Origin: Lujinxingiaceae bacterium
Lineage (GTDB): Bacteria; Myxococcota_A; Bradymonadia; Bradymonadales; Bradymonadaceae
Direction of reading: 5' to 3'
Assembly (NCBI GenBank): GCA_013697635.1
Contig: JACCWM010000116.1
Span: 1-36,584 of the forward strand
Length of the DNA stretch: 36,584 bases
The notes below the pieces were generated by a model. That model did not search any database. It saw only the letters and a program-made list of their open reading frames with translations, and had not been told where the DNA came from. This document shows positions 3,995 to 36,241 of this stretch, piece after piece. Both the position numbers and the translations under genes were made by a program. Within the stretch, counting starts at the first letter, position 1. Each line of letters opens with the position of its first letter.

Positions 3995-5377
3995 CTATTT
4001 GCCGACGCAGAACTCGCTGAAGATGCGGTTGAGTATATCGTCGCTGGTCACGCGGCCCGTGATGTCGCCCAGCGCGTCGAGCGCGTCGCGCAAATCCAGG
4101 GCGATGAACTCGTGTTGGAGCTCGTCGTCGAGCGCCTGGCGAGCGCGCTGCAGGGCTTCTAGCGCGCGCAGCACGGCCTGGAGGTGGCGCGTGCGGCTGA
4201 TCAGCACGCCCTCGGCAGCCGTGAGATGGGCGCAGACGGCGGCCAGCGTGGCGCGAAGCTCGCTGGTGCCCTCGGGGGGCTGGGCGGTGAGCGCAGTGGC
4301 GACGACGTGCTCGAACTCTTTGAGCAGGCGCTCGTCTTCGGGACTCAGGGCGGCGGGCAGATCACTCTTGTTGGTGACGACGAGCGTGGGGCGGCCCTGG
4401 GCGAGCAGGTTCTCGAGCTGGTCGCGCTCCTCGGGCTCGAGGCCAACGCTGCGGTCGACGAGCCAGATCACCAGATCGGCGCGCTGGCCGAGCTCGCGGC
4501 TGCGGGCAATGCCGATCGCCTCGACCTGGTCCTCGGTGACACGAAGGCCGGCCGTATCGACCAGTCGAAGCGCAACGCCGCCCAGGTGGATCTCCTCTTC
4601 GAGAAAATCACGGGTGGTGCCGGCGACCGGGGTCACAATGGCGCGCTCGGTACCGTGGAGCAGATTGAAGAGGGTGCTCTTGCCGGCGTTGGTCGGGCCT
4701 AAAATCACGGCGTGCACGCCCTCTCGCTGGCGGCGGCCCTCGTCAAAGCGGGCGCGCAAGCCGGTGAGCTCCGCTAAGACACGGTCGATGCGCGCGGCCA
4801 CCTCGGCGTGCTCGATCTGGTAGACGTGCTCCTCGTGGCTAAAATCGATCGCTGCCTCGACGAGCACCGCGGCCTGGGCGATCAACTCAGCAAGCTCGCC
4901 GATTGCCTGACCCAGACGGCCCTGCAGGTGTTCGACGGCCAACTTGTGGGCGCTCTCGGTGGTCGCATTGACGAGATCGGCGACGGCCTCGGCCTGGGTC
5001 AAGTCCAGTCGCCCGTTCAAGAAGGCGCGCTGGGTGAACTGGCCGGGCTCGGCCACCTCGGCGCCGGCCAAGAGCACGGCGTCGAGCACGCGGCGCAAGA
5101 TGATCGGGCCGCCGTGGCACTGAAACTCGACGACGGGCTCACCGGTATAGCTGTGGGGAGCGCGCATCAATACAGCGAGCGCGACGTCGATCAGCTCGCC
5201 GGTGGCATCGACGATGCGCGAGTGGCGCAGTTTGTGGCTGGCAAAGTCGGCGGGGAAGTCCGCCACCAGAGCTTGCAAGATCTCGGCGGCCCGTGGGCCG
5301 CTGACGCGCACAATCCCCACGCCTCCCTTGCCGGGGGGCGTGGCGATCGCGGCGATGGTCGTGATCGAGGTGCTCAA
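3995..5377 (-). CDS. mnmE: tRNA modification GTPase MnmE (TrmE)
   Basis: MnmE, with MnmG, forms the 5-carboxymethylaminomethyl group on U34 of certain tRNAs, using a folate-bound one-carbon unit. The 460-residue protein has the N-terminal folate-binding domain (TIAAIATPPGKGGVGIVRVSG), a helical domain, and an inserted G domain: G1 GPTNAGKS (227-234), G2 TTRD (254-257), G3 DTAG (274-277) and G4 TNKSD. It ends in the invariant CVGK. The frame is open further upstream, but that extension is antisense-like overlap with jag. The family N-terminus fits the TTG at 5377, behind a GGGGCG stretch and 13 nt after the jag stop. It is the last gene of the rpmH-mnmE run, the usual neighbourhood. Confidence 0.96.
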   Translation of the reverse strand: MSTSITTIAAIATPPGKGGVGIVRVSGPRAAEILQALVADFPADFASHKLRHSRIVDATGELIDVALAVLMRAPHSYTGEPVVEFQCHGGPIILRRVLDAVLLAGAEVAEPGQFTQRAFLNGRLDLTQAEAVADLVNATTESAHKLAVEHLQGRLGQAIGELAELIAQAAVLVEAAIDFSHEEHVYQIEHAEVAARIDRVLAELTGLRARFDEGRRQREGVHAVILGPTNAGKSTLFNLLHGTERAIVTPVAGTTRDFLEEEIHLGGVALRLVDTAGLRVTEDQVEAIGIARSRELGQRADLVIWLVDRSVGLEPEERDQLENLLAQGRPTLVVTNKSDLPAALSPEDERLLKEFEHVVATALTAQPPEGTSELRATLAAVCAHLTAAEGVLISRTRHLQAVLRALEALQRARQALDDELQHEFIALDLRDALDALGDITGRVTSDDILNRIFSEFCVGK

Positions 5378-5390
5378 GGACGCCCCGCGC

Positions 5391-6755
5391 TCAGGGCTGC
5401 GGATCGATCCGCAGCTTTCGGAAGACGCCGACGTCGGTGCTCTCGGTCTTGAGACCCTTCTCCTCGCCCAGGCTCTGGTGGATCGCCCGACGCTCAAACG
5501 AGTTGAAGCCGGCGATCGTGAGCGCCTTGTTGATCTTGCGGGCAGTCTGCGCGAGGCGGCCAGCGATCGAGACGAGCTGCTCCTGGCGACGCTGGCGGTA
5601 GCCGCCAATATCGACGATGACGCGGCCTGTACCCTTCTCGGAGAGCACCTCAGCGAGCACGGTTTGGATCGACTCGAGCGTGGTCGGCGAGAGGGCGTTG
5701 TTGATCGACTCGTCGGCATCGTCGCCACCGACGTTGAAGAGCAGATCTTCCTTTTGCTCGCTTGCCTCGATCTTGACGTCGAGCTTCATGCGCTCAAAGA
5801 GCCCCTCGAGCCAGCGCGTTCCTCGCTCGAGCAGCACGGCCGGGCTCGTCGCCGGTTCGCTGCGCGGATCGGTGGACGGCTTCGAAGCACCGCTAGCAGC
5901 GATTGGCGAGCTCTTTTGCTCCTTGCCACCGCGGCTTCGTGGACCACGGCTGGCCGTCTCGGGCTTCTCGGCCGGTGCGGGCGCAGCGGCCTGCTCGGGC
6001 GCCGGTGCGGGCGCAGCTTTTGTGGCCTTGGCATCGTCCTTCTTTTCGCCACGACGCGTCGCGCCACCGGTCTTGGCAGCAGGCTTGTCGGCCTTTGCCT
6101 CGGGCTTGGCCGCAGGAGCGCTCGTCGCAACAGCTGCTTTGGGCGTGCGCGTTCGGCGAGCAGCGGGCTTGTCGGCCGCGGCCTCGACTGCAGGCTCTGC
6201 GGCCTTGAGTGCGGGCTTCTCGGCTTTGGGGGCTTTGGCCTTGGTCTCCTTGGCTGCTTTGGGCGCGGGCTTGTCGGCGACGGCTGCAACCGGCTCGGCC
6301 TTCTTGCTTTGGGCCTTTTTCGGCTCGGGCGCAGCCTTGTCAGCCTTGGGTGCGGGCTTCTCGGCCGCTACGGGCTTGGCAGCTTTGGGAGCGGGCGTGG
6401 CAGCTTTCGGCGCAGGCGTGGCAGCTTTGGGCGCGGCAGCCTTTGGCTTCTCGGCGCTGGCCTTTGCGATGGGCGCGGCCTTTGTGGCTTTGGCTGCGGG
6501 CTTCTCGACGACGGCCTCGACCGGCTCGGCCTTCTTGCCTCGGGCCTTCTTTGGCTCGGGCGCGGGCTTGGCGGCTTCTTTGGCAGGCGCTGCGGCCTTT
6601 TCAGCAGCCTTCTCGGCGGGCTTGGGAGCGGGCTTGGCCTTGGCCTTCGTAGCAACTGTGGGCGCGGCTTCTACTTTCTTGGCTGTGCCGGCGCGCGCCG
6701 ATTTTCGACCCTCTGTGGCGTCCTTGCCTGTCTTTTTCTTCTTATCATCTGCCAT
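5391..6755 (-). CDS. jag: Jag/KhpB RNA-binding protein with long Ala/Lys/Pro-rich N-terminal tail
   Basis: The C-terminal ~145 residues of this 454-residue protein match the Jag (KhpB, SpoIIIJ-associated) family. They hold a KH domain (TRWLEGLFERMKLDVKIEASE ... GRVIVDIGGYRQRR) followed by an R3H domain (SFERRAIHQSLGEEKGLKTES). The family binds RNA and is encoded next to yidC and mnmE, as here. The first ~305 residues are low-complexity repeats of Ala, Lys, Pro and Glu (KPAPKA, AKPKA and similar), like histone H1 tails. They replace the short Jag_N domain of other bacteria. Start ATG at 6755 has an AGGA 10 nt upstream. The tail is probably disordered and nucleic-acid binding (inference). It sits 46 nt downstream of yidC and 13 nt upstream of mnmE, so it is probably in the same operon. 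Confidence 0.92.
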   Translation of the reverse strand: MADDKKKKTGKDATEGRKSARAGTAKKVEAAPTVATKAKAKPAPKPAEKAAEKAAAPAKEAAKPAPEPKKARGKKAEPVEAVVEKPAAKATKAAPIAKASAEKPKAAAPKAATPAPKAATPAPKAAKPVAAEKPAPKADKAAPEPKKAQSKKAEPVAAVADKPAPKAAKETKAKAPKAEKPALKAAEPAVEAAADKPAARRTRTPKAAVATSAPAAKPEAKADKPAAKTGGATRRGEKKDDAKATKAAPAPAPEQAAAPAPAEKPETASRGPRSRGGKEQKSSPIAASGASKPSTDPRSEPATSPAVLLERGTRWLEGLFERMKLDVKIEASEQKEDLLFNVGGDDADESINNALSPTTLESIQTVLAEVLSEKGTGRVIVDIGGYRQRRQEQLVSIAGRLAQTARKINKALTIAGFNSFERRAIHQSLGEEKGLKTESTDVGVFRKLRIDPQP

Positions 6756-6801
6756 AAGACCAAATCCTAATTTTCAGCGAAGCGTTTTGAGCAACCGTAC
6801 T

Positions 6802-8463
6802 TTAGATCGCCGCGCCGGCCTGGGCGGCACGCGCAAACTTGCGCTTGATCCAGACCTGCTGGCCGAGGCCGAGCACGAGGTTGACGAAGTAGTAGAGTAC
6901 GAGGCCCGAGGGCAAAAACAACATGAAAGCCGTAAAGACGATGGGCATGATCTTCATCATCATGGCCATCTGTGCGTTGCCGGTGTCGATCGTGGTCATG
7001 CGCTGCTGGATCACCATGATGGCGCCCATCAAGATCGGCAGCACGAAGTACGGATCGGGCGCGGACAGGTCGACATACCACAGGGCGAAGTGCGCCTGAT
7101 AGAGCTCGACCGAGTTGTAGATCATCACGAAGAGGCCGTAAAGCACGGGCATCTGGATGAGCATGGGTAAGCAGCCCAAGGCGCTGACGTTGTGCTCCTT
7201 GAAGAGCTTCATCGTCTCTTCGGTCATACGCTGCTGATCGTTCTCGTACTTCTTTTTGACCTCTTGGAGCTTGGGCTGGATGAGCTTCATGCGCTCGGCG
7301 TTGACGTAGGCCTTGTCGGTGATCGGCCAGGTCACGATCTTGATCAGCAGCGTGAGCAAAATGATCGCCAGGCCCCAGTTACCCACCCAGCCGTTAAAAA
7401 GCACGAGCAGCCAGCGCAACGGGCGGGCGAGCACGGTGAGCAGGCCGTAGTCGACGCTCTCCTCGAGGCGGTGTCCGATATCCGAGAGCACGCCGTAGTC
7501 CTTGGGGCCCATGTAGAGCAGGTGGCTCTGGGTCAAGGTCATGCTCGGCGCGACGGTGAAGCTCTCGCTGGTCACGCGGGTGCGCATGTACATCGAGTCG
7601 ACGCGCGAGATCTCGCAGCGCGCAGCGCGATCGGCCGGCACGTTGGCCAACAAAAAGTAGCGCGTATCGATCGCGCCCCAGATCGTCTGGGCCGTGAAGA
7701 GCTGCGTCTTGTCTTCGACCTTTTGAAACAGGTAGCGCTCGGTGTCGTCGAGCAGACGGCAGACGCCCTCGAGCTCATCGGGTCGAAAGTCGAGGAAGTT
7801 GCGCTCAACGCTGGGATCGGGTGTGCCGAAAACGTCGACCGCGAGCCGGGCGCCGAGGGTATCGACGTGGCGGTTGTTGATCCGCACGTCCATGTTGATC
7901 ACGAAGGGCTGCTCGGCATCGATGCTGAAGATCTTGTCGATGTCGTAGCGGTTGCGCGGATCTTGATAGCGGTAGGTGATGCGCGAATAGCCATTGCCCG
8001 AGCGCACGCTCTCGGTGTCGATAAGCTCAAAAACCGTGCCCTGGGGCACGGAGAGCACGGTGCTGTCGAGAAAGGCGATGCTAAAGGGTCGGTAGGGAGA
8101 GTCTTCGGGAAAAGCGTTGAGCAGATCTCCGCGGCGCGAGTACTGCTCCGGATCGATGATGTGCACGCTTTGAACCGCAGCGTCGCGGTTGGTCAGCTCG
8201 ACCTTAAAGTGGGGCGTGACGAGCGTGTCGGTGCGCACCGCAATCTGGCGCGCGCTCGGCGGCGTCTCGCGCTCGTCGGGCTGCCTGTCGACCACGGGAG
8301 GCTGGTCGGGGCGCGGCTCAGGCGTAACCTCAACCTTCTCCACCCGACGCTCGGGCGTGGTTGCTGGCACCAGCTCGCCGGGCTTGGGAGCAAAAAAGAC
8401 TTGCCAGACCAGCAGCACGAGCCCACTCAAGACCATTGCGAGAACGAAACGCTTTTGCTCCAT
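6802..8463 (-). CDS. yidC: Membrane protein insertase YidC
   Basis: YidC inserts and folds inner-membrane proteins, alone or with the Sec translocon. The 553-residue protein starts MEQKRFVLAMVLSGLVLLVW, an N-terminal membrane anchor typical of Gram-negative YidC. A large periplasmic domain of about 300 residues follows. The conserved C-terminal part has five transmembrane segments, including NWGLAIILLTLLIKIVTWPI, LGCLPMLIQMPVLYGLF, a segment around PYFVLPILMGAIMVIQQRM, and FMLFLPSGLVLYYFVNL. An in-frame ATG eight codons upstream lies inside a 44-bp palindrome. I prefer 8463 because it gives the family N-terminus and has GAGA just upstream. Gram-negative-type length agrees with the outer-membrane context of the window. 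Confidence 0.96.
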   Translation of the reverse strand: MEQKRFVLAMVLSGLVLLVWQVFFAPKPGELVPATTPERRVEKVEVTPEPRPDQPPVVDRQPDERETPPSARQIAVRTDTLVTPHFKVELTNRDAAVQSVHIIDPEQYSRRGDLLNAFPEDSPYRPFSIAFLDSTVLSVPQGTVFELIDTESVRSGNGYSRITYRYQDPRNRYDIDKIFSIDAEQPFVINMDVRINNRHVDTLGARLAVDVFGTPDPSVERNFLDFRPDELEGVCRLLDDTERYLFQKVEDKTQLFTAQTIWGAIDTRYFLLANVPADRAARCEISRVDSMYMRTRVTSESFTVAPSMTLTQSHLLYMGPKDYGVLSDIGHRLEESVDYGLLTVLARPLRWLLVLFNGWVGNWGLAIILLTLLIKIVTWPITDKAYVNAERMKLIQPKLQEVKKKYENDQQRMTEETMKLFKEHNVSALGCLPMLIQMPVLYGLFVMIYNSVELYQAHFALWYVDLSAPDPYFVLPILMGAIMVIQQRMTTIDTGNAQMAMMMKIMPIVFTAFMLFLPSGLVLYYFVNLVLGLGQQVWIKRKFARAAQAGAAI

Positions 8464-8476
8464 AATTCTCAATCTT

Positions 8477-8520
8477 TTCGAATCCAAGAGGCGCCCTCGA
8501 GGGCGCCTCTTGGATTCGAA
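8477..8520. repeat. 44-bp perfect palindrome between yidD and yidC
   Basis: Positions 8477-8498 are the exact reverse complement of 8499-8520, with the centre at CTCGAG. It begins at the yidD stop codon and ends 13 nt before the yidC ATG. No T-run follows on either strand, so it is not a standard terminator. In mRNA it would form a ~20-bp hairpin that could stop or process the transcript or shield the yidC start. Confidence 0.9.
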
Positions 8521-8832
8521 CTACGGGACGGGATCGTAGCCTCCATCATGGAAGGGGTGACACCGTCCGATGCGCTTGATTCCCAGCCAACCCCCACGAA
8601 AGAGGCCGTAGCGGCGTAGGGCGACAAGCATGTATTGCGAGCAACTGGGCTGGTAGCGGCACGCGGGAGGTAACAAGGGGGAGATAAAGCGCTGGTAGAA
8701 GAGCACAAAGAGCACCCCACACCAGGTCAATGGGCCCAGGCGCCGAGGTGAGCTGACGGGCTGCTCGTCGCTGGTGTTCAGCGCCGTTTGCTCGTCGTGC
8801 TGGCTGTCAACGCGCGGCTCATCGACTTGCAC
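8521..8832 (-). CDS. yidD: Membrane protein insertion efficiency factor YidD
   Basis: This 103-residue protein carries the full YidD signature: a hydrophobic helix ([16 protein letters not shown]), then [46 protein letters not shown]. Three conserved cysteines are present. YidD is a small membrane-associated helper of YidC-dependent insertion. The first ~30 residues are polar and extra to the family. The start is GTG at 8832, 3 nt after the rnpA stop, so the genes are co-translated or coupled. Gene order rpmH-rnpA-yidD-yidC is classical. Confidence 0.95.
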
Positions 8833-8835
8833 TGC

Positions 8836-9252
8836 TCAATCTCCCTTACGCCGTGTCGGCGTGAAAGCCGACAGTCGCACGAGCTCCTCGCTCAGAGCGG
8901 TGAGCGAGGGCAATTGGGCGCCGGCCTTGACGATGATGACCATGTCGAAGCCTGCGGGAAAACGGGCCTTGTTTTGGCGAAAGATCTCGCGAATGTGCCG
9001 CTTCCAGACGTTTCGCACCACGGCATTGCCCACCTTGCGCGCCACGGTCAATCCGATGCGCGAGCACTCCAACCCGTTGTTGCTCGTGTACACCACCAGG
9101 AATTTGCCCGATCGCCGCTGACCCCTTCGCTGGGTCCTCAAAAAGTCGGAGCGCTTTCGCAGTCGTTCTTCTTTGCGAAAACGCTCGTCGTCGCGATACG
9201 ACGCCAGCACCTCTGGCTCAATCGATGGGCTGGGGCACGCGTCGCTCGGCAT
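8836..9252 (-). CDS. rnpA: RNase P protein component
   Basis: RnpA binds the RNase P RNA and helps it cleave the 5' leader of pre-tRNAs. Family motifs are visible: FRKEERLRKRSDFLR, GKFLVVYTSNN, and the RNR-type helix RIGLTVARKVGNAVVRNVWKRHIREIFR with several basic residues. There is an extra polar N-terminus of about 25 residues. The ATG at 9252 is chosen; a GTG two codons upstream (9258) is equally possible, and neither has a convincing ribosome binding site. It lies 17 nt after rpmH. Confidence 0.94.
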   Translation of the reverse strand: MPSDACPSPSIEPEVLASYRDDERFRKEERLRKRSDFLRTQRRGQRRSGKFLVVYTSNNGLECSRIGLTVARKVGNAVVRNVWKRHIREIFRQNKARFPAGFDMVIIVKAGAQLPSLTALSEELVRLSAFTPTRRKGD

Positions 9253-9269
9253 GGGCACTACATCTTTGG

Positions 9270-9422
9270 TTACTTGGTGTACTTTGGCACGGCAAGGCTC
9301 TTGCGACCCTTGGCGCGACGGCGTTTGAGGACGAGACGTCCACCAACGGTCTTCATACGGGCACGAAAGCCGTGCGTGCGGCGACGTTTTACTTTGCTTG
9401 GTTGATACGTTCTTTTGCTCAT
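9270..9422 (-). CDS. rpmH: 50S ribosomal protein L34
   Basis: This 50-codon gene translates to [20 protein letters not shown] and continues [25 protein letters not shown], an unmistakable L34 of the large ribosomal subunit. It ends PKYTK, slightly longer than the common 44-47 residues. The start codon is ATG at 9422, with GGAA/CGGATC upstream. It is the first gene of the rpmH-rnpA-yidD-yidC-jag-mnmE series and has a promoter about 130 bp upstream. Confidence 0.98.
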
Positions 9423-9552
9423 GATCCGTTCCTTACTAGCGTTCTATGATTCATCCAAAAAGACTTCGAAAAGCCTAAGCAGCCCAGTTGACCAACCTCA
9501 GCGTCAAAAACACAAAGGCGGTCCCCTTATTCCCAGGGGGCAGAGCGCCGCC

Positions 9553-9581
9553 ATAAAACATCATCGGGGCGGGGAAGTCAA
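9553..9581 (-). promoter_or_regulatory. Sigma70-like promoter upstream of rpmH
   Basis: On the minus strand TTGACT (9576-9581) and TTTTAT (9553-9558) have 17-nt spacing, predicting a start near 9546 and a leader of about 120 nt. It lies between the dnaA stop and rpmH and would drive the rpmH-mnmE genes independently of dnaA. Confidence 0.6.
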
Positions 9582-9612
9582 GTTCACAAGGGCGCAATGA
9601 TGGCGCCGCTGT

Positions 9613-11100
9613 TCAACGAATAAGCAGCGCTTCGAGCTCGTCGATCAAGGCGATCAGCTGGTCGTCCTCGTCTTGCACGAGTCCCTCGATTTTGCGACAG
9701 GCTGCGAGCACGGTGGTGTGGTCCTTGCCGCCGAATTTGCGCCCGAGCTCGGGAAAGGAGTCGCTGGTGTGCTTTCGTGCCAGATACATGGCGATCTGGC
9801 GCGGCTCGCTGATGTTGCGCGTGCGCCGCGCGCCCTTGATATCGGCTGCCTTGAGATCGAAGTGCGCGGCGACCACTCGGATGATCTGCTCGACGTTGAC
9901 CTGGCGTCCTTGTTCGACGTGCATGCGCTTGAGCATCTGGCGCGCAAAATCCAGGGTCAGCGGGCTACCGACCAAGAGGGCCTGCGCGCCCAGGCGAATC
10001 AGCGTGCCTTCGAGCTCGCGCACGTTGGTGCGGATGCTGCTGGCAAGCAGCATGCCGACCTCTTTGGAGAGGCTGATGCCGTCGGCCTCGGCTTTTTTCT
10101 CGAGGATCGCCAGGCGTGTCTCAATCTCGGGAGGCTGGATGTCGGCGATCAGCCCCCAGGCAAAACGGCTGGCCAGGCGCTCCTCGATGCCGGGAAGCTC
10201 CTTGGGCGGCTTGTCCGAGGTGACCACGATTTGCTTGCCCCCCTGGTGCAGAGCATTGAAGGTGTGGAAGAACTCCTCCTGGGTGGAGTCCTTGCCACCG
10301 ATGAACTGGATGTCGTCGACGAGCAGCACGTCGCAGTTGTTGCGAAACTGCATGCGAAACGAGTTCATGTCCTTGTTGCGAAGCGAGGTGATCAGCTGGT
10401 TCATGAAGTGTTCGGAGGACAAGTTGAGCACGCGCGCCGCCGGGTTGTTGCGCAAGATCTCGATGCCCACGGCCTGCAAGAGATGGGTCTTGCCAAGGCC
10501 GACGCCGCCAAAGACGAACAGCGGATTGTAGCTCTGGGCGGGTTTGCTCGCCACGGCGGCGCAGGCCGCGTGGGTGAACTGGTTGGAGGGCCCGACGACA
10601 TACTCCTCGAAGGTGTAGCGCGGGTTGAGGCCGGCCGCTTGAATGCGCCGCTGAAGCTCCTCCTCACGGGAGAGCGTAGCCCGGATTACGGGGTTGGCGC
10701 CGATCTCGGCGCCGCCAAGGGGCACAAGCTCGACGCGCTCGGGAAACAAGCTGCCCTGGGTGTCGTCTTGCGATACGCGCGCGATGCGCGCCATTCTGGC
10801 CGCGACCGGGCGCTCTTCGAGATCAATCACGGCGTCGAAGGCCTCGCTGATCGCGTCGAAGGCGCCCTCGACATCGATGACCACTTCAATGCGCGCGCCG
10901 GTCGTGCTGCGCAAGGCATCCTCGATCAGATCGAGATAGTTGTCTTCGATCCAGGCCTTGAAGAAGTCATCGGAGACCTCCAGATAGACCGTCAGATCTT
11001 GCTGGTGATGGAAGCGAATGTTCCGAAACCAGGCGTCGAAGTTGTGAGCGCTGACTTTGGCTTTGAGGTCGCAAAGCGCTGTCTGCCAGATGTCTGTCAT
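9613..11100 (-). CDS. dnaA: Chromosomal replication initiator DnaA
   Basis: This 495-residue DnaA has all four domains. Domain I starts MTDIWQTALCDLKAKVSAHNFDAWF. Domain II is a variable linker (about 85-155). The AAA+ domain III has Walker A GGVGLGKT (198-205) and Walker B LLVDDIQF (259-266). Domain IV has the DnaA-box-binding signature with GKDHTTVLAACRKIEGL near the C-terminus and RNISEPRQIAMYLARKHT. DnaA-ATP opens the origin and loads helicase. The gene is followed on the same strand by rpmH, whereas in most bacteria rpmH and dnaA diverge around the origin; no dnaN is in the window. No good ribosome binding site precedes the ATG at 11100. Confidence 0.98.
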   Translation of the reverse strand: MTDIWQTALCDLKAKVSAHNFDAWFRNIRFHHQQDLTVYLEVSDDFFKAWIEDNYLDLIEDALRSTTGARIEVVIDVEGAFDAISEAFDAVIDLEERPVAARMARIARVSQDDTQGSLFPERVELVPLGGAEIGANPVIRATLSREEELQRRIQAAGLNPRYTFEEYVVGPSNQFTHAACAAVASKPAQSYNPLFVFGGVGLGKTHLLQAVGIEILRNNPAARVLNLSSEHFMNQLITSLRNKDMNSFRMQFRNNCDVLLVDDIQFIGGKDSTQEEFFHTFNALHQGGKQIVVTSDKPPKELPGIEERLASRFAWGLIADIQPPEIETRLAILEKKAEADGISLSKEVGMLLASSIRTNVRELEGTLIRLGAQALLVGSPLTLDFARQMLKRMHVEQGRQVNVEQIIRVVAAHFDLKAADIKGARRTRNISEPRQIAMYLARKHTSDSFPELGRKFGGKDHTTVLAACRKIEGLVQDEDDQLIALIDELEALLIR

Positions 11101-26113: not shown

Positions 26114-26551
26114 TCAGGCGATGCCCATCTCCGTTTTCAACTTGGCCACCATGCGAAAATAGGCATCGCGCGAGAACTTCTGGTTGAGGATGTGAAACTC
26201 CTTTTTGACCAGGCCCACGCAGCCAAAGCAAAAGATGCACTCGTCGCAGTGATCGCTCATGATCACATAGGAGCATGCCGACAAGTTGCGTGAGTTGACG
26301 CAGTAGCTCGACTGGTGACAGCCCTGGCAGCCGTGGCAATGCGTGCACTGGCTGCAGTCCGTGCAGTGGCCGCAATAGGTGCAGCCAAAGCAGCCCGTGC
26401 TGTCGGTGGTGAACATGCACTGGCGGCAGTCCTTGCAGCGCTCGCAGCGATAGCTGCCCGGATTCTGATCGGCCTCTTGCAGCGCTTGTTGCTGGAGATC
26501 GCGCAAGGCGCGCTCGAATTCGCGTTTTTCCAGGGGAATGCTCGATTGCAT
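26114..26551 (-). CDS. Small protein with period-3 cysteine ladder
   Basis: A 145-residue protein with a charged helical N-terminus (1-33), a cysteine-rich middle (36-111) and a helical C-terminus. The 19 cysteines are at 36, 39, 42, 45, 54, 57, 60, 63, 66, 69, 72, 75, 78, 84, 93, 102, 105, 108 and 111, every one in a single three-residue register. Gaps are filled by Ser, Thr or Val in that register. It has no signal peptide, so a metal or Fe-S cluster binding protein or a repeat solenoid is likely (inference). ATG 26551 is chosen because AAGGA lies 6 nt upstream; an upstream in-frame start at 26590 would add 13 residues. I cannot assign it to a known family. Confidence 0.85.
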   Translation of the reverse strand: MQSSIPLEKREFERALRDLQQQALQEADQNPGSYRCERCKDCRQCMFTTDSTGCFGCTYCGHCTDCSQCTHCHGCQGCHQSSYCVNSRNLSACSYVIMSDHCDECIFCFGCVGLVKKEFHILNQKFSRDAYFRMVAKLKTEMGIA

Positions 26552-26637: not shown

Positions 26638-26664
26638 TTGACGCTGCTCCAGCCCTACTGTAAT
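26638..26664 (+). promoter_or_regulatory. Putative promoter of the C-rich-loop RNA
   Basis: TTGACG (26638-26643) and TGTAAT (26659-26664, five of six consensus bases) are separated by 15 nt, shorter than the 17-nt ideal. The predicted start near 26671 coincides with the first base of the RNA's outer stem. Confidence 0.5.
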
Positions 26665-26670
26665 TTTGCC

Positions 26671-26848
26671 GTGATATTGAGTGTTTTGGATGGTGTCCCC
26701 CCCTCATTCATCCAAAAGTTGCTCCTCCCTCAAACAGAGAGCCTGCTCAATATCATCGGTCGACAAGGTTCCCCCCGACTAAGTCGACCACTTATCTGTT
26801 TCCCCCGAAGCAGATAGAATCCCCCGGGCAATCCCCGGGGGTTTTTTT
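26671..26848 (+). ncRNA. Candidate structured small RNA with C-rich hairpin loops
   Basis: No credible reading frame is present, yet 26671-26848 folds into a tidy chain. A 10-bp outer stem (26672-26681 with 26746-26755) encloses a 9-bp hairpin (26684-26692 with 26709-26717) whose loop holds seven Cs. Between them an open stretch contains CTCCTCCC (26722-26729). A 7-bp hairpin (26758-26764 with 26783-26789) has six Cs in its loop. A 6-bp hairpin (26793-26798 with 26811-26816) has five. A C-rich terminator hairpin closes it. Total about 178 nt. It lies between two minus-strand genes and has its own promoter and terminator. Exposed C-rich loops and a CUCCUCCC stretch are typical of RNAs that pair with Shine-Dalgarno sequences (inference). 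Confidence 0.65.
26821..26848 (+). terminator. Intrinsic terminator of the C-rich-loop RNA
   Basis: An 8-bp GC stem (26821-26828 with 26834-26841) with a 5-nt loop is followed by seven Ts (26842-26848). No T-run follows in the minus direction, so this terminator serves the plus strand. Confidence 0.9.
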
Positions 26849-26868
26849 GCTCTGTGGCCCGCTCGCGT

Positions 26869-32000: not shown

Positions 32001-32420
32001 CTCGCGCTCTACACGCTGTTTTTGCATGCGGTCAACACCGAGTTCTGGACGCCGTTTGCGCGCTTTTTGGCGACCTTGCTCGATCCTGACCGTCGCTGGG
32101 ACGCGCCGCCGCTGTCCGATCTGCCGCTGGCCTCGCATGTGGCCCTGATTACGCGCGAAATGCTCACCTATGACGCGCCGGGCACGATCCTCGAAGTGCT
32201 GCACCGCGGCTTGCGCAGTGAGGGCCAGGCGCTGTCGCCGTTGGGCGTGATCGTCGAGCTCGTCGCCGACTACTACCGCGCAGATCCGAGCCTTGCCGGG
32301 CCGCTTGGCGAAGAGGACTATCGGCGCGTCTTCAGCTCGATCGCCGGCTGGCTGGCTCACCGCGTCTACGGTATTGAACAATACTACAAGCTCGCTGCCC
32401 AGCGGCGCATCCACCCTTGA
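29085..32420 (+). CDS. Large secreted lipoprotein of unknown function (~1,110 residues)
   Basis: It starts MSSSMGLRVSILVACGLIFG with C23 as probable lipidation site (relaxed lipobox FGLGC). No family is recognised. Visible features: a calcium-type motif DHDGDGLADVD near residue 263, a Cys pair module (CFQPC ... CIRAC) near 495-520, and many hydrophobic helices suggesting an alpha-helical, surface or periplasmic protein. Starts at GTG 29061, ATG 29076 or ATG 29097 are also in frame. The GGAG at 29078-29081 is only 3 nt from 29085, so the start is not certain. It is followed 32 nt later by the first IgGFc lipoprotein. Confidence 0.8.
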   Translation: MSSSMGLRVSILVACGLIFGLGCLKEYDFERPEQARGTLGQELFTIWKKDTARSATAPQARLALLEERGEDFVDAVDATIPLDHLGEFDTFLQDTLPLIDSGLMPGLTRKLTVSMEEAAASPGLLAAISGQRRPPAGSFITHRVNPDFAVHALSFGQMRALSLRTTDRVVKADGLHEDGRVFFEESTSVSDLLRAWKLSTDAPLASSAPSERWPMALSTLLFSEDARFERAAAGTPLFVARYDERGFPKAALSSTGIAFPFVDHDGDGLADVDQAGRFVLSDGSAASILAFSSGDLSEPVSRDAFGRATRGQSGFAFDYVDLNRTGLGFLVRSGARLANEEVLYHLLAAAPVVMGPLAVGEDARGSYVALAEDHPLLDVLDALVATLNVESLPEVLGAVAGFLDRASAQLAQLFWALQHASEAIDRHPAATLRDNQTLLYDLLPILRDIAQSPALWADFMEALRDPIIRRAGEAMLTLLKHKNVRAVPAVGGPYDTCFQPCLALPIGTDRRFDCIRACPNQEIFSVPMDFASAEAETNRSMMQRMFHLLRDTAGVSYTMNIVEARVPGITLPANLPPMVTLPGAAEAFIAAVAGNLNLADYISEEFTNSDLGQLVRLLDAILPFDLGNETVASALSIASGLFGVHLDTVPSPDQITRLFNQPDLRFESDDGSIVLAVSNPVCRDGFVMSHHHADGLYAGEASGLIDTIYPLARAFSNHGREDLLAQLFVVVHAHYSSRTDLYRTAQGSPTPMKGSNLVSFEPILIEVFEAGHFFDALYEFAHATKQIKAPGEIDFDEHMRRLVFQATRTDDGFKSRSGKSAVQVADGRNLSPISRLHIVLNGIEEAIERVPPGEPSRRHLDLALEGITNVLLEVEKADGEPAKFVEPGGLALTSRAIRQLSERAATLQERGELSTWLDQTLIDELASLWSSRGFYAMLRFGNELHAEAEMRALLSDFLQHIANSPAGYQQTTLALYTLFLHAVNTEFWTPFARFLATLLDPDRRWDAPPLSDLPLASHVALITREMLTYDAPGTILEVLHRGLRSEGQALSPLGVIVELVADYYRADPSLAGPLGEEDYRRVFSSIAGWLAHRVYGIEQYYKLAAQRRIHP

Positions 32421-32452
32421 AAGCGTTGATTACCTCGATTTGGAGTTTCACG

Positions 32453-34312
32453 GTGCGTCTATTCTCGTATTTGAGTGTGTGTTTGACGGTGCTCGCCATG
32501 TTGGCCGGCTGCAGTGATGACTCTGAGCGCGGTTCAAAGCAGGTGACCTGCCCGCCAGGTCAGACCTTGAATCCCATATTTAACACCTGCCATGCCAACA
32601 GCGGTGGCGGGAATCTCGATACCGGCGGCGGCAGCGACGTCGATCAAGACACCAGCACCGGGCCCGGCCCAGACACCGGCGGCGGCCAGCCCGACACGGG
32701 CCATCAGATCCCGCCCGATACCGGCGAAGCGTGCGAGGCCAATGCGCGCCACTGTGAGAGCGACTCGATGGCCGCCGTCTGCGTCGACGGCAGTTATGTC
32801 AAGTCCACTTGTCCGCAGGGCTATCTTTGCCGGCGCGGTCACTGCGAGGCGACGGGCTGTCTGGCCAACGCCGTGCGCTGCACCTCGAACACTCAATACC
32901 AGGTCTGTTTGGCCAGCGGTGAGTTTGGTGAGGCGACGACCTGCGCCGATGGAAAGGCCTGCGTGGCCGGCCAGTGCGTGGGCGGCTGCTCGGTCAACCT
33001 CAAGGAGAAATCCAACCTGGGCTGCGACTACATCAGCCTTCGCCACGACATCGTCAACCCGCCCTTTGGTGGCGCGTTTGTTCACTCGGTGGTGGTTTCC
33101 AACCCGGGTAATGCCGCAGCCAACCTGGTCGTAACCAGCCCGGAGTTGCCCAACTTGAGCTTCCCCAACACGCGGGTTGAGCCGCTGAGCAGCCTGGTGC
33201 TCGATTTTCCCAACACCATTCCGGTCAACACCGCCGGCGTCTCGCGGCGCATCTTTCGCATCGCAAGCGATCAACCCGTGATCGCCACACAGTTCGCGCC
33301 GCTGAACAACCCGGGCGCGCTCAAGGAGAGCAGCGATGCGACCTTGCTCTTGCCGGTCAACGCGCTGGGCTCCAAGTACATCACGCTGGGCTGGCGCGGC
33401 TTGAGTCCGCGTGGCGGCTACGTCGACATCGTCGCGGCAAGCCCGGGCACGACCAACGTCACGGTCAGCTCGCCAATCAAGCTCAATGGCGGCGCGGCCG
33501 GATCCGTTGCTGCCGGCGGCACGACGGTCTTCACCATTCACGCCAACCAGGTGCTTCACCTGGTCGAGGACCAGGGATTTGGTGCCTCGCAGCCCTCGCG
33601 CGACGTCTCGGGGATCATCGTCGAGGGCACCCAGCCTATCGCCGTGTACACGGGCGCAACGCTGGTGAACATCCCCGACGGCCCAGACGCGCTGGCCGCA
33701 GGCGATCATATCGAGCAGCAGATGTTCCCCACCAACACCTGGGGCACGACCTATTTGGCTGTGCCCTTCAAGTCGCGCGCTGCAGCGGACTTCTCGATCT
33801 TTCGCGTGCTGGCCATGGAGGACGCGACCACGGTCAACTTCAATCCGGCCGTCACCAACAATACGAGCTCGACCGTGCTCAACCGCGGTCAGTACTTCGA
33901 GTTTCGAAGCGCGCTGGCCGTCGAAGTCACCGCTGACAAACCAATCCAGCTTGGCCAGTTCATGATCGGCGGTGAGATCAACCCCTCGCCAGGTGACGGC
34001 GATCCGGCCTTCGTGCTGCCGGCGGCCATCGAGCAGTTTCGCGACGATTACGTCTTTTTGGTGCCGGCCGGCTACCGCAGGAATTTCGTCACGATCGTCG
34101 CACCGTCCGCCGAGCAGGTCGTGCTCAACGGCAGCACGGTCGACGCTAGCCAGTTCCAGAGCTTTGGCTCGGGCGCCTGGAAGTACGCGATCATGCCGAT
34201 CACGGCCGGCATCCACACCGCCTCGTCGAGCAAGCCGTTTAGCGTGCTCTTGCACGGCTACGATTCCTACATCAGCTATGCATTTGTCGGCGGGATCATC
34301 TTGCCGGAGTAG
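32453..34312 (+). CDS. IgGFc-binding-domain lipoprotein, copy 1
   Basis: This 619-residue protein starts at a GTG with GGAG 7 nt upstream; the paralogue's start shows the same layout. A lipoprotein signal ends LAMLAGC (C20). A Cys-containing head (CPPGQTLNPIFNTC) and an Asp/Thr/Gly/Pro-rich linker follow. Next come two related cysteine modules (C-x6-C-x8-C and similar, about 70-155) and then about 450 residues of beta-sandwich matching an IgGFc-binding N-terminal domain (PLSSLVLDFPNT, RIASDQPVIATQFAPLNNP, PAAIEQFRDDYVFLVPAGY). Such domains occur in secreted surface or adhesin-type proteins of deltaproteobacteria. It is nearly identical over much of its length to the next gene. Confidence 0.88.
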   Translation: MRLFSYLSVCLTVLAMLAGCSDDSERGSKQVTCPPGQTLNPIFNTCHANSGGGNLDTGGGSDVDQDTSTGPGPDTGGGQPDTGHQIPPDTGEACEANARHCESDSMAAVCVDGSYVKSTCPQGYLCRRGHCEATGCLANAVRCTSNTQYQVCLASGEFGEATTCADGKACVAGQCVGGCSVNLKEKSNLGCDYISLRHDIVNPPFGGAFVHSVVVSNPGNAAANLVVTSPELPNLSFPNTRVEPLSSLVLDFPNTIPVNTAGVSRRIFRIASDQPVIATQFAPLNNPGALKESSDATLLLPVNALGSKYITLGWRGLSPRGGYVDIVAASPGTTNVTVSSPIKLNGGAAGSVAAGGTTVFTIHANQVLHLVEDQGFGASQPSRDVSGIIVEGTQPIAVYTGATLVNIPDGPDALAAGDHIEQQMFPTNTWGTTYLAVPFKSRAAADFSIFRVLAMEDATTVNFNPAVTNNTSSTVLNRGQYFEFRSALAVEVTADKPIQLGQFMIGGEINPSPGDGDPAFVLPAAIEQFRDDYVFLVPAGYRRNFVTIVAPSAEQVVLNGSTVDASQFQSFGSGAWKYAIMPITAGIHTASSSKPFSVLLHGYDSYISYAFVGGIILPE

Positions 34313-34352
34313 TCCGATTCAAAACCGGCCTTGGCCGCTACCACGACCACCA

Positions 34353-34383
34353 CGTCGCGCTCATCTGGCGCGACGAATTTTTT
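34353..34383 (+). terminator. Intrinsic terminator between the two IgGFc lipoprotein genes
   Basis: An 8-bp perfect stem (34353-34360 with 34368-34375) with a 7-nt loop is followed by AA and six Ts (34378-34383). It ends 5 nt before the GGAG of the second gene, leaving no room for a promoter after it. It would limit readthrough into copy 2 or act as an attenuator. Confidence 0.85.
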
Positions 34384-34399
34384 AGTATGGAGCTCCACC

Positions 34400-36241
34400 G
34401 TGCGTCTCTTCAGGTTTTTGTGCGCTCTGCTTCTCCTCATGGTGCTTTCAGCATGCAGCGACGATTCCAAGGGAGGCGAGCCCCAAACGCGTTGCCCCGA
34501 AGGTCAGAGCTTCAATCCGATCTTTGGCCAATGCCAGCCCAACGTCGCCGGCCTCGACGACACCTCGCCATCGGATAGCGCCATAATCCCCGACCAGGAT
34601 GTCGTGGCCGTGCCCGATGTGCCCTTTGAGCAGCCGCAAGACAGTGGCAACCAGGCCTGCGAGCCAAATGCACGTCAATGCGTCAACGACAGCGTCTCCG
34701 AGGTGTGCATCCACGGTATCTGGGAGCGCCACGTCTGCCCGGCCACCTACGTTTGCAGCCGCGGTCACTGCGAGGCGACGGGTTGTCTTGCCAACGCCGT
34801 GCGCTGCGTCTCGAACAATCAGTTTCAGGCTTGCGGCGAGAATGGCGAGTTTGGCGAGGCGACGACCTGCGCCGATGGAAAAGCCTGTGTGGCCGGCGAG
34901 TGCGTGGGCGGCTGCTCGATCAACATCAAGGAGCGATCCAATCTGGGCTGCGATTACATCAGCGTTCGCCACGACATGTACACCCCCTCGTCAGGCGAGC
35001 TGCTCGCCCACTCGGTGGTCGTCTCTAATCCGGGCACCGCAGCGGCCACGCTGGTGATCACCAGCCCGGAGCTGCCCAATTTGAGCTTTCCCAACACGCG
35101 CGTTGAGCCGCTGAGCAGTCTGGTGCTCGATTTTCCCACGACCATTCCTGTGATCACGCCCGGCGTCTCGCGGCGCATCTTTCGCATCGCCAGCGATCAA
35201 CCTGTGATCGCCACACAATTTGGCCCTTTGAACAATCCCGGCAGACTCAAGGAGAGCAGTGATGCAACCTTACTCTTGCCGGTCAACGCCCTGGGGCCCA
35301 GGTACATCACGCTGGGCTGGCGGGGCATCCAGCCGGGCACGGCCTACGTCGACATCGTTGCGGCAAGCCCGGGCACGACCAACGTCACGGTCACCTCGCC
35401 CATCAAGCTCAACGGAGGCGCGGCCGGATCGGTTGCAGCCGGCGGCACGACGGTCTTCACTATTCACGCCAACCAGGTGCTCCACCTGGTCGATGCCCAG
35501 GGCTCTTCGGCCCCAATCTTGCGCGACGTGTCGGGCATCATCGTCGAGGGCACCCAGCCGATTGCCGTCTACACCGGGGCGCGCCTGGTCAACATCCCTG
35601 ATGGTCCCGACGTGATCTTGGCCGGCGATCACATCGAGCAACAGATGTTTCCCACCGACACCTGGGGCACAACCTATCTGGGCGTACCGTTTGAGTCGCG
35701 TGCGGCGGCGGACTTCACGATCTTTCGCGTGCTCGCCATGGAAGACGAGACGACGGTCACCTTCGATCCGCCCGTCGCCAACAATACCAGCGCGACCGTG
35801 CTCGCCCGCGGCCAGTTCTTCGAGTTTAAAAGCTCCGAGCCCGTTGAGGTCAGCGCCGACAAACCGATCCAGCTTGGCCAATACATGATCGGCGGCAGCA
35901 TCAATCCCTCGCCGGGGCCCGGTGACGGCGATCCGGCCTTCGTGCTGCCCGCTGCCATCGAACAGTACCGCGACGACTACGTCTTCTTGGTGCCGGCCGG
36001 CTACCGCAAGAACTTCGTCACGATCATGGCGCCGGCGGCCGAAGAGGTCGTGCTCAACGGCACCCCGGTCGCCGCCGCGTCGTTTCGAACCTTTGGCTCG
36101 GGCGCCTGGAAGTTCGCCACGCTGCCGATCACGGCCGGCATCCACACGGCCACCTCAAACCAGGCGTTTGGCGTGCTCTTGCACGGCTACGATTACTACA
36201 TCAGCTACGCTTTTGTCGGCGGGATCATCCTGGCGGAGTAG
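34400..36241 (+). CDS. IgGFc-binding-domain lipoprotein, copy 2
   Basis: This 613-residue paralogue of the upstream gene starts at a GTG 7 nt after GGAG, with the same VRLF N-terminus. The signal ends LMVLSAC (C19). The short cysteine head (CPEGQSFNPIFGQC) is kept. The linker differs most (DDTSPSDSAIIPDQD), while the cysteine modules and the IgGFc-binding beta domain are almost the same as in copy 1. Differences are spread across the domain and frames are intact in both, so neither copy is a pseudogene. A tandem duplication is the simplest explanation. No gene is seen between its stop at 36241 and the right edge. Confidence 0.88.
   Translation: MRLFRFLCALLLLMVLSACSDDSKGGEPQTRCPEGQSFNPIFGQCQPNVAGLDDTSPSDSAIIPDQDVVAVPDVPFEQPQDSGNQACEPNARQCVNDSVSEVCIHGIWERHVCPATYVCSRGHCEATGCLANAVRCVSNNQFQACGENGEFGEATTCADGKACVAGECVGGCSINIKERSNLGCDYISVRHDMYTPSSGELLAHSVVVSNPGTAAATLVITSPELPNLSFPNTRVEPLSSLVLDFPTTIPVITPGVSRRIFRIASDQPVIATQFGPLNNPGRLKESSDATLLLPVNALGPRYITLGWRGIQPGTAYVDIVAASPGTTNVTVTSPIKLNGGAAGSVAAGGTTVFTIHANQVLHLVDAQGSSAPILRDVSGIIVEGTQPIAVYTGARLVNIPDGPDVILAGDHIEQQMFPTDTWGTTYLGVPFESRAAADFTIFRVLAMEDETTVTFDPPVANNTSATVLARGQFFEFKSSEPVEVSADKPIQLGQYMIGGSINPSPGPGDGDPAFVLPAAIEQYRDDYVFLVPAGYRKNFVTIMAPAAEEVVLNGTPVAAASFRTFGSGAWKFATLPITAGIHTATSNQAFGVLLHGYDYYISYAFVGGIILAE

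Follow-up and report, generated by a model that had tools for sequence, protein, structure and literature searches.

The plus strand of the window (the whole stretch of 36,584 nucleotides that was analysed) carries at 26,671-26,848 a free-standing small-RNA gene with its own promoter and terminator, present as a single copy in its own genome and found in 13 of the 21 genomes of its family (class Bradymonadia). The best explanation of the locus as a whole, to which we assign a probability of about 0.68, is that the gene encodes a regulator, most likely trans-acting, whose C-rich loops would pair with mRNAs independently of Hfq. The structure that the earlier note had proposed from the letters is present in both sequence and fold, and the comparison with relatives defines its layout, its strand and its probable mode of action.

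Gene boundaries, fold and selection

The RNA would be ~178 nt in length with a probable start at about 26,671-26,672, and across homologues its size is about 175 to 210 bases. The gene is predicted to be transcribed from a promoter composed of a -35 box, TTGACG (26,638-26,643, plus strand), and a -10-like box, TAATTT (26,661-26,666, plus strand), located 17 bases past it. A strict sigma-70 consensus scan of the window did not detect this promoter, but the promoter-like pair that the earlier note had described holds its position, with TTGAC occurring 33-35 bases 5′ of the first model position in 13/13 homologues. A/T tracts precede the TTGAC box in the homologues, the -10-like box is of the TAATTT, TATCTT or TAGCTT type, and it ends 4-5 bases ahead of the first RNA base (5 in the window). 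Judging from the TTGAC box, the promoter is of the housekeeping type. At the other end, a terminator scan placed an intrinsic terminator at 26,821-26,848 on the plus strand, consisting of an 8 bp G+C stem-loop (26,821-26,841) and the run of seven T (26,842-26,848) on which the RNA had been said to end; its helix corresponds to conserved helix 7 of the covariation alignment. Hexamer repeats of the GAACTC or GAGACC type occur directly 3′ of the terminator in three relatives (L012:2416-2521, L014 after 2317 and L026 1450-1498) and are absent from the window.

The plus strand of 26,660-26,860 folds at -77.1 kcal/mol, compared to -48.2 ± 4.2 for shuffled sequences (z -6.9; 0/200), and from 5′ to 3′ the layout is an enclosing stem P1 around hairpins H1 and H2, followed by H3, H4 and the terminator. 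P1 is a stem of 10 bp with a 5′ arm UGAUAUUGAG (26,672-26,681) and a 3′ arm CUCAAUAUCA (26,746-26,755), for which six of the eight modelled pairs have two-sided changes and 97.7% of cells are paired. H1 (26,684-26,717) displays a C7 loop (26,697-26,703), with two-sided changes in 7/7 pairs of its outer helix and 5/6 pairs of its inner helix, and its C-run has an unpaired probability of 1.0 in all homologues tested. H3 (26,758-26,789; 10/12 pairs with two-sided changes) displays a C6 loop (26,771-26,776), and H4 (26,793-26,816; 8/10 pairs, 98% of cells paired) has a C5 run at its tip (26,802-26,806). Loops of C6-C9 occur on H1 and H3 in 11/11 copies tested and on H4 in all of them except the window copy, and in every copy tested the probability of being unpaired is 0.98-1.0 for the C-runs of H1 and H3. 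Because part of the H4 C-run is base-paired in the minimum-energy fold, the window copy exposes 4 to 5 C at this position (mean unpaired probability of the run 0.80).

The small hairpin H2 (26,721-26,742) has a nearly invariant GCUC/GAGC stem and a CU-rich loop, holding CUCCUCCC (26,723-26,730). The loop reads CUCCCUC in most homologues and instead CUUCUUU in genomes of the genus Lujinxingia. The same positions had been described as an open stretch, CTCCTCCC, which requires correction as the 5′ part falls within the conserved hairpin; CTCCTCCCTC has on average a probability of 0.51 of being unpaired in the window, the values for the H2 loop in relatives being 0.44-0.87. Further, the last C-run sits paired in the terminator stem. 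Thus, of the four C-carrying hairpins and enclosing stem previously described, the stems are all present, but the RNA has three C-run loops and one CU-rich loop.

Covariation far beyond chance indicates that this structure is under selection. In the model-based alignment, which was fitted to the structure and so flatters the figures, 95.1% of cells are paired, two-sided changes occur in 40 of 59 pairs compared to 17.8 ± 2.8 in shuffles, and all measures exceed those of all 500 shuffles. When the partners are displaced by one to three columns, pairing falls to 35-44%. Independently of this alignment, ten copies folded singly share one layout, and a plain MAFFT alignment submitted to RNAalifold retains 12 two-sided pairs. 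The alignment of homologous intergenic regions that the earlier note had called for is therefore in agreement with its expectation of covarying stems and C-rich loops. Whereas the sequence of the P1, H1, H3 and H4 stems differs between copies, the C-runs hold invariant columns, and a constant loop on a freely changing stem has the look of a loop that recognises something.

Distribution and genomic neighbourhood

The carriers include Lujinxingia vulgaris TMQ2. DNA similarity alone provided one relative, and the remaining relatives were reached through the neighbouring gene for a Cys-rich protein. A first covariance model (R1), built from six relatives with the window left out, scored the window at 79.2 bits, with a genome-wide E of 2e-19, and recovered ten further copies at E below 1e-25. 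A second model (R2) added a copy in genome G015 (E 1e-13), which was part of its building set, and a copy in genome G010 (E 7e-7), which was outside of it. By eye, the G010 copy departs from the layout by an additional hairpin and has C5/C6/C6/C6 loops, and both of these copies adjoin the Cys-rich gene. The covariance model search found no copy in eight family genomes and a pattern search for series of C-runs in the same genomes returned nothing convincing, and therefore loss or strong divergence of the RNA is likely there.

Outside of the family, no convincing member was found in 57 genomes of the class or 237 genomes of the phylum, searches in which stricter filters may lose weak matches, and a plasmid search returned no match. 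Nearly all of the weak off-locus matches (E 3e-4 to 0.2) were ordinary gene-end terminators, none with the layout, as were the matches in G037 and G016:C2. Matches in two genomes from another family of the class (G056 and G045; loci L101, L103 and L104) are intergenic C5-C6 motifs without the layout and are possibly unrelated C-loop RNAs. Some of these motifs lie in hairpin loops, and in L101 a terminator follows.

The small RNA adjoins and diverges from the Cys-rich gene (26,114-26,551, minus strand, with the start at 26,551 placed from the alignment) in 10/10 genomes for which the contigs permit checking. The protein has CxxCxxC repeats and a C-terminal FGCVGLxxKEFHILN. It matched neither a Pfam nor an NCBIfam family, and homologues occur in Bradymonadia, other delta-proteobacteria and Patescibacteria. 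On the other flank, a gene whose product has an Smr domain converges with the RNA, such that both neighbours are on the opposite strand.

Several other features of the window can be recorded. A 6S RNA (RF00013, 49.3 bits) is located at 2,718-2,906 on the minus strand, about 24 kb from the small RNA. In mycobacteria, the C-loop RNA 6C is close to the 6S-like Ms1 gene (PMC9569102), and the sharing of this window by a 6S RNA and a C-loop RNA is probably a coincidence. From the translations, the order of open reading frames at 3,995-11,100 (minus strand) resembles the usual mnmE-jag-yidC-yidD-rnpA-dnaA cluster near the replication origin, and two adjacent, strongly alike lipoprotein-like frames (32,417-34,312 and 34,331-36,241, plus strand) constitute a tandem duplication.

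Mode of action and competing explanations

A closed multi-branch core (P1, H1 and H2) together with H3 and H4 presents three unpaired C-runs, mostly of 6-9, and H2 offers a CU-rich loop resembling an anti-Shine-Dalgarno sequence. In the favoured mechanism, the C-loops would initiate base pairing at G-runs or at ribosome-binding sequences of the GGAG type, and this pairing would block the translation of a limited set of mRNAs without Hfq. Trans-action, mRNA pairing and repression are suggested here by analogy: an Hfq-independent, trans-acting regulator is proposed because published C-loop RNAs pair with G-rich mRNA, the Xanthomonas RNA sX13 functions without Hfq, and Hfq was not found in the family. 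The Hfq model, positive in E. coli, B. subtilis and other controls, was empty in 21/21 family genomes, and thus Hfq seems to be unavailable to these organisms.

The earlier note had proposed a trans-acting RNA that represses many mRNAs. A plus-strand small-RNA gene is real, but the computed pairing with ribosome binding sites provides no excess in its own genome. Among the 577 genes from home-made calls in 0.97 Mb (about a sixth of that genome), AGGAG/GGAGG peaks at the expected place, and the loops find no better pairing partners in start regions than in shuffled or coding-internal sequence; for the H1 and H3 loops the pairing is rather worse than for shuffled sequence. Runs of four or more G near starts are likewise not in excess (24 compared to 23 in the control window, of 577). 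This result is compatible with a limited target set but does not support the idea of many mRNAs. Over 0.4 Mb of one Lujinxingia genome, GGGGG peaks at the ribosome-binding position (11 compared to 1-5 in other bins), which as a target signal is suggestive only, and some of the top matches may be miscalled starts. A comparison of G-runs between orthologs had 12 usable pairs, one of which had a G-run at the start, in one genome only.

The lack of excess complementary sites at start codons in its own genome would also suit a different role, in which the RNA would titrate a single-strand-binding or cold-shock-type protein through binding sites repeated in its C-rich loops, much as CsrB does for CsrA, and several similar loops are indeed repeated within one rigid RNA. 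The length of the runs, however, ranges from C4-C5 to C9 and their flanks differ, which suits pairing over a fixed protein site, and published C-loop small RNAs act on G-rich mRNA (PMC3771888, PMC12395582, PMC5869019). We consider titration of a protein unlikely, while granting it some weight.

Reading the locus on its minus strand would convert the loops to GGGGGA and the RNA to a CsrB/RsmZ-like decoy for CsrA. CsrA is encoded in 19/21 family genomes, many minus-strand loops read GGGGA by eye in the alignment, and the minus strand of the same stretch folds as well (z -3.35). A decoy of this type would be transcribed from the strand with GGA loops and would have its own terminator there, but both the promoter and the terminator lie on the opposite strand. 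Because the fixed-distance promoter is on the plus strand in 13/13 homologues, the T-run terminator occurs only on that strand, and wobble pairs suit it (35 G-U compared to 9 A-C cells), a minus-strand decoy is very unlikely; the plus-strand fold is also twice as strong by z score. The earlier note had itself disfavoured this strand for want of a terminator, a judgement that the promoter now reinforces.

The position of the RNA between two genes and a 30-codon frame in the window copy could point to a cis element (a leader, an attenuator or the 3′ UTR of a neighbour) or to a short peptide mRNA. The RNA, however, has its own promoter and terminator with both neighbours on the other strand, and the frames in homologues vary in length and sequence, have no ribosome-binding site and include no conserved frame, making such an origin highly improbable. 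Finally, C-runs are present in the intergenic DNA of G+C-rich genomes, but a chance or repeat element that happens to fold can be practically dismissed given the single copy, the covariation far outside shuffles, the E-value of 2e-19 and the conserved neighbour.

The trans-acting, mRNA-pairing regulator thus remains the favoured explanation, and it provides a concrete candidate regulatory RNA for the Bradymonadia, which are facultative predators (PMC11509652). It is conceivable, if rather doubtful, that the RNA is a main post-transcriptional regulator of this predatory, Hfq-less lineage, with two kinds of aiming loop and a link to the Cys-rich protein. Should this be the case, a single molecule would combine pure C-runs with an anti-Shine-Dalgarno CUCCUCCC loop in a closed junction, and the link to the Cys-rich protein, which is positional, would perhaps be functional.

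Relationship to known C-loop RNAs

The earlier note recognised no named family, and in agreement no Rfam family scores above its threshold at 26,671-26,848; matches at a loose threshold fall mostly on the terminator. A search of the open-access literature for small RNAs of the Bradymonadales yielded no paper. RsaE and RoxS had been offered for comparison, but 6C, sX13 and ar14/NfeR1 are closer in design. Small RNAs with C-loops or anti-Shine-Dalgarno loops pair, or are predicted to pair, with G-rich mRNA sites (PMC3771888, PMC12395582, PMC5869019, PMC10746234, PMC3927594).

The Bradymonadia RNA shares with 6C/B11 the loops of at least six C in stable hairpins, and pairing with mRNA has been demonstrated for the C-rich loop of mycobacterial B11/6C (PMC12395582). 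The 6C model (RF01066) scores 35.6, 35.6 and 34.0 bits on three homologues from the genus Lujinxingia, below the threshold of 47, and in two Lujinxingia genomes its best whole-genome match falls exactly on the small RNA; there was no match on the window copy. 6C is specific to Actinobacteria (PMC9569102), while the hosts here belong to the Bradymonadia. The 6C model has 75 positions, and B11 has three stem-loops, its terminator bearing a C9 loop, unlike the 175-210 nt, the enclosing stem, the three C-loops, the CU-rich loop and the separate terminator of the Bradymonadia RNA.

ar14/NfeR1 (RF02344) of the Rhizobiales has three hairpins with CCUCCUCCC in each loop (PMC10746234, PMC3927594), whereas the Bradymonadia RNA has a single CUCCUCCC, in H2, and pure C-runs in its other loops. 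The ar14 model scores 36.5 bits on one homologue (L021), below the threshold of 58.8, and did not match the window copy. The near-matches to 6C and ar14 are compatible with either distant kinship or convergence, and layout and size differ.

sX13 of Xanthomonas has three stable stems with C-rich apical loops of 4C, 4C and 5C, and it represses, independently of Hfq, mRNAs with G-rich motifs near their starts (PMC3771888). The Bradymonadia RNA likewise has stable hairpins whose unpaired C-runs are conserved across homologues, but sX13 is 115 nt in length, has an unstructured 5′ region, lacks the enclosing stem and belongs to another phylum, and it had no match in the loose Rfam scans. In GsrN of Caulobacter, the exposed C-rich 5′ loop is the most conserved part and base-pairs to a G-tract within the leader of katG (PMC5869019); GsrN is about 106 nt with one C-loop described, has a sigma-T promoter and activates katG, while the Bradymonadia RNA has a housekeeping-type TTGAC promoter. 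Pxr of Myxococcus xanthus, from the same phylum, is also a hairpin-chain small RNA (PMC5684412), and its description, with three stem-loops, sets it apart.

By analogy with these systems, the Bradymonadia RNA most likely represents a new family that acts like 6C, sX13 and ar14/NfeR1 without being a member of any of them, and its mechanism would be of a known kind. Small RNAs with C-rich loops had previously come from Actinobacteria, Xanthomonas and alpha-proteobacteria; a family in the Myxococcota adds a lineage and suggests that C-run hairpins may be a recurring, Hfq-free mode of pairing with mRNA.
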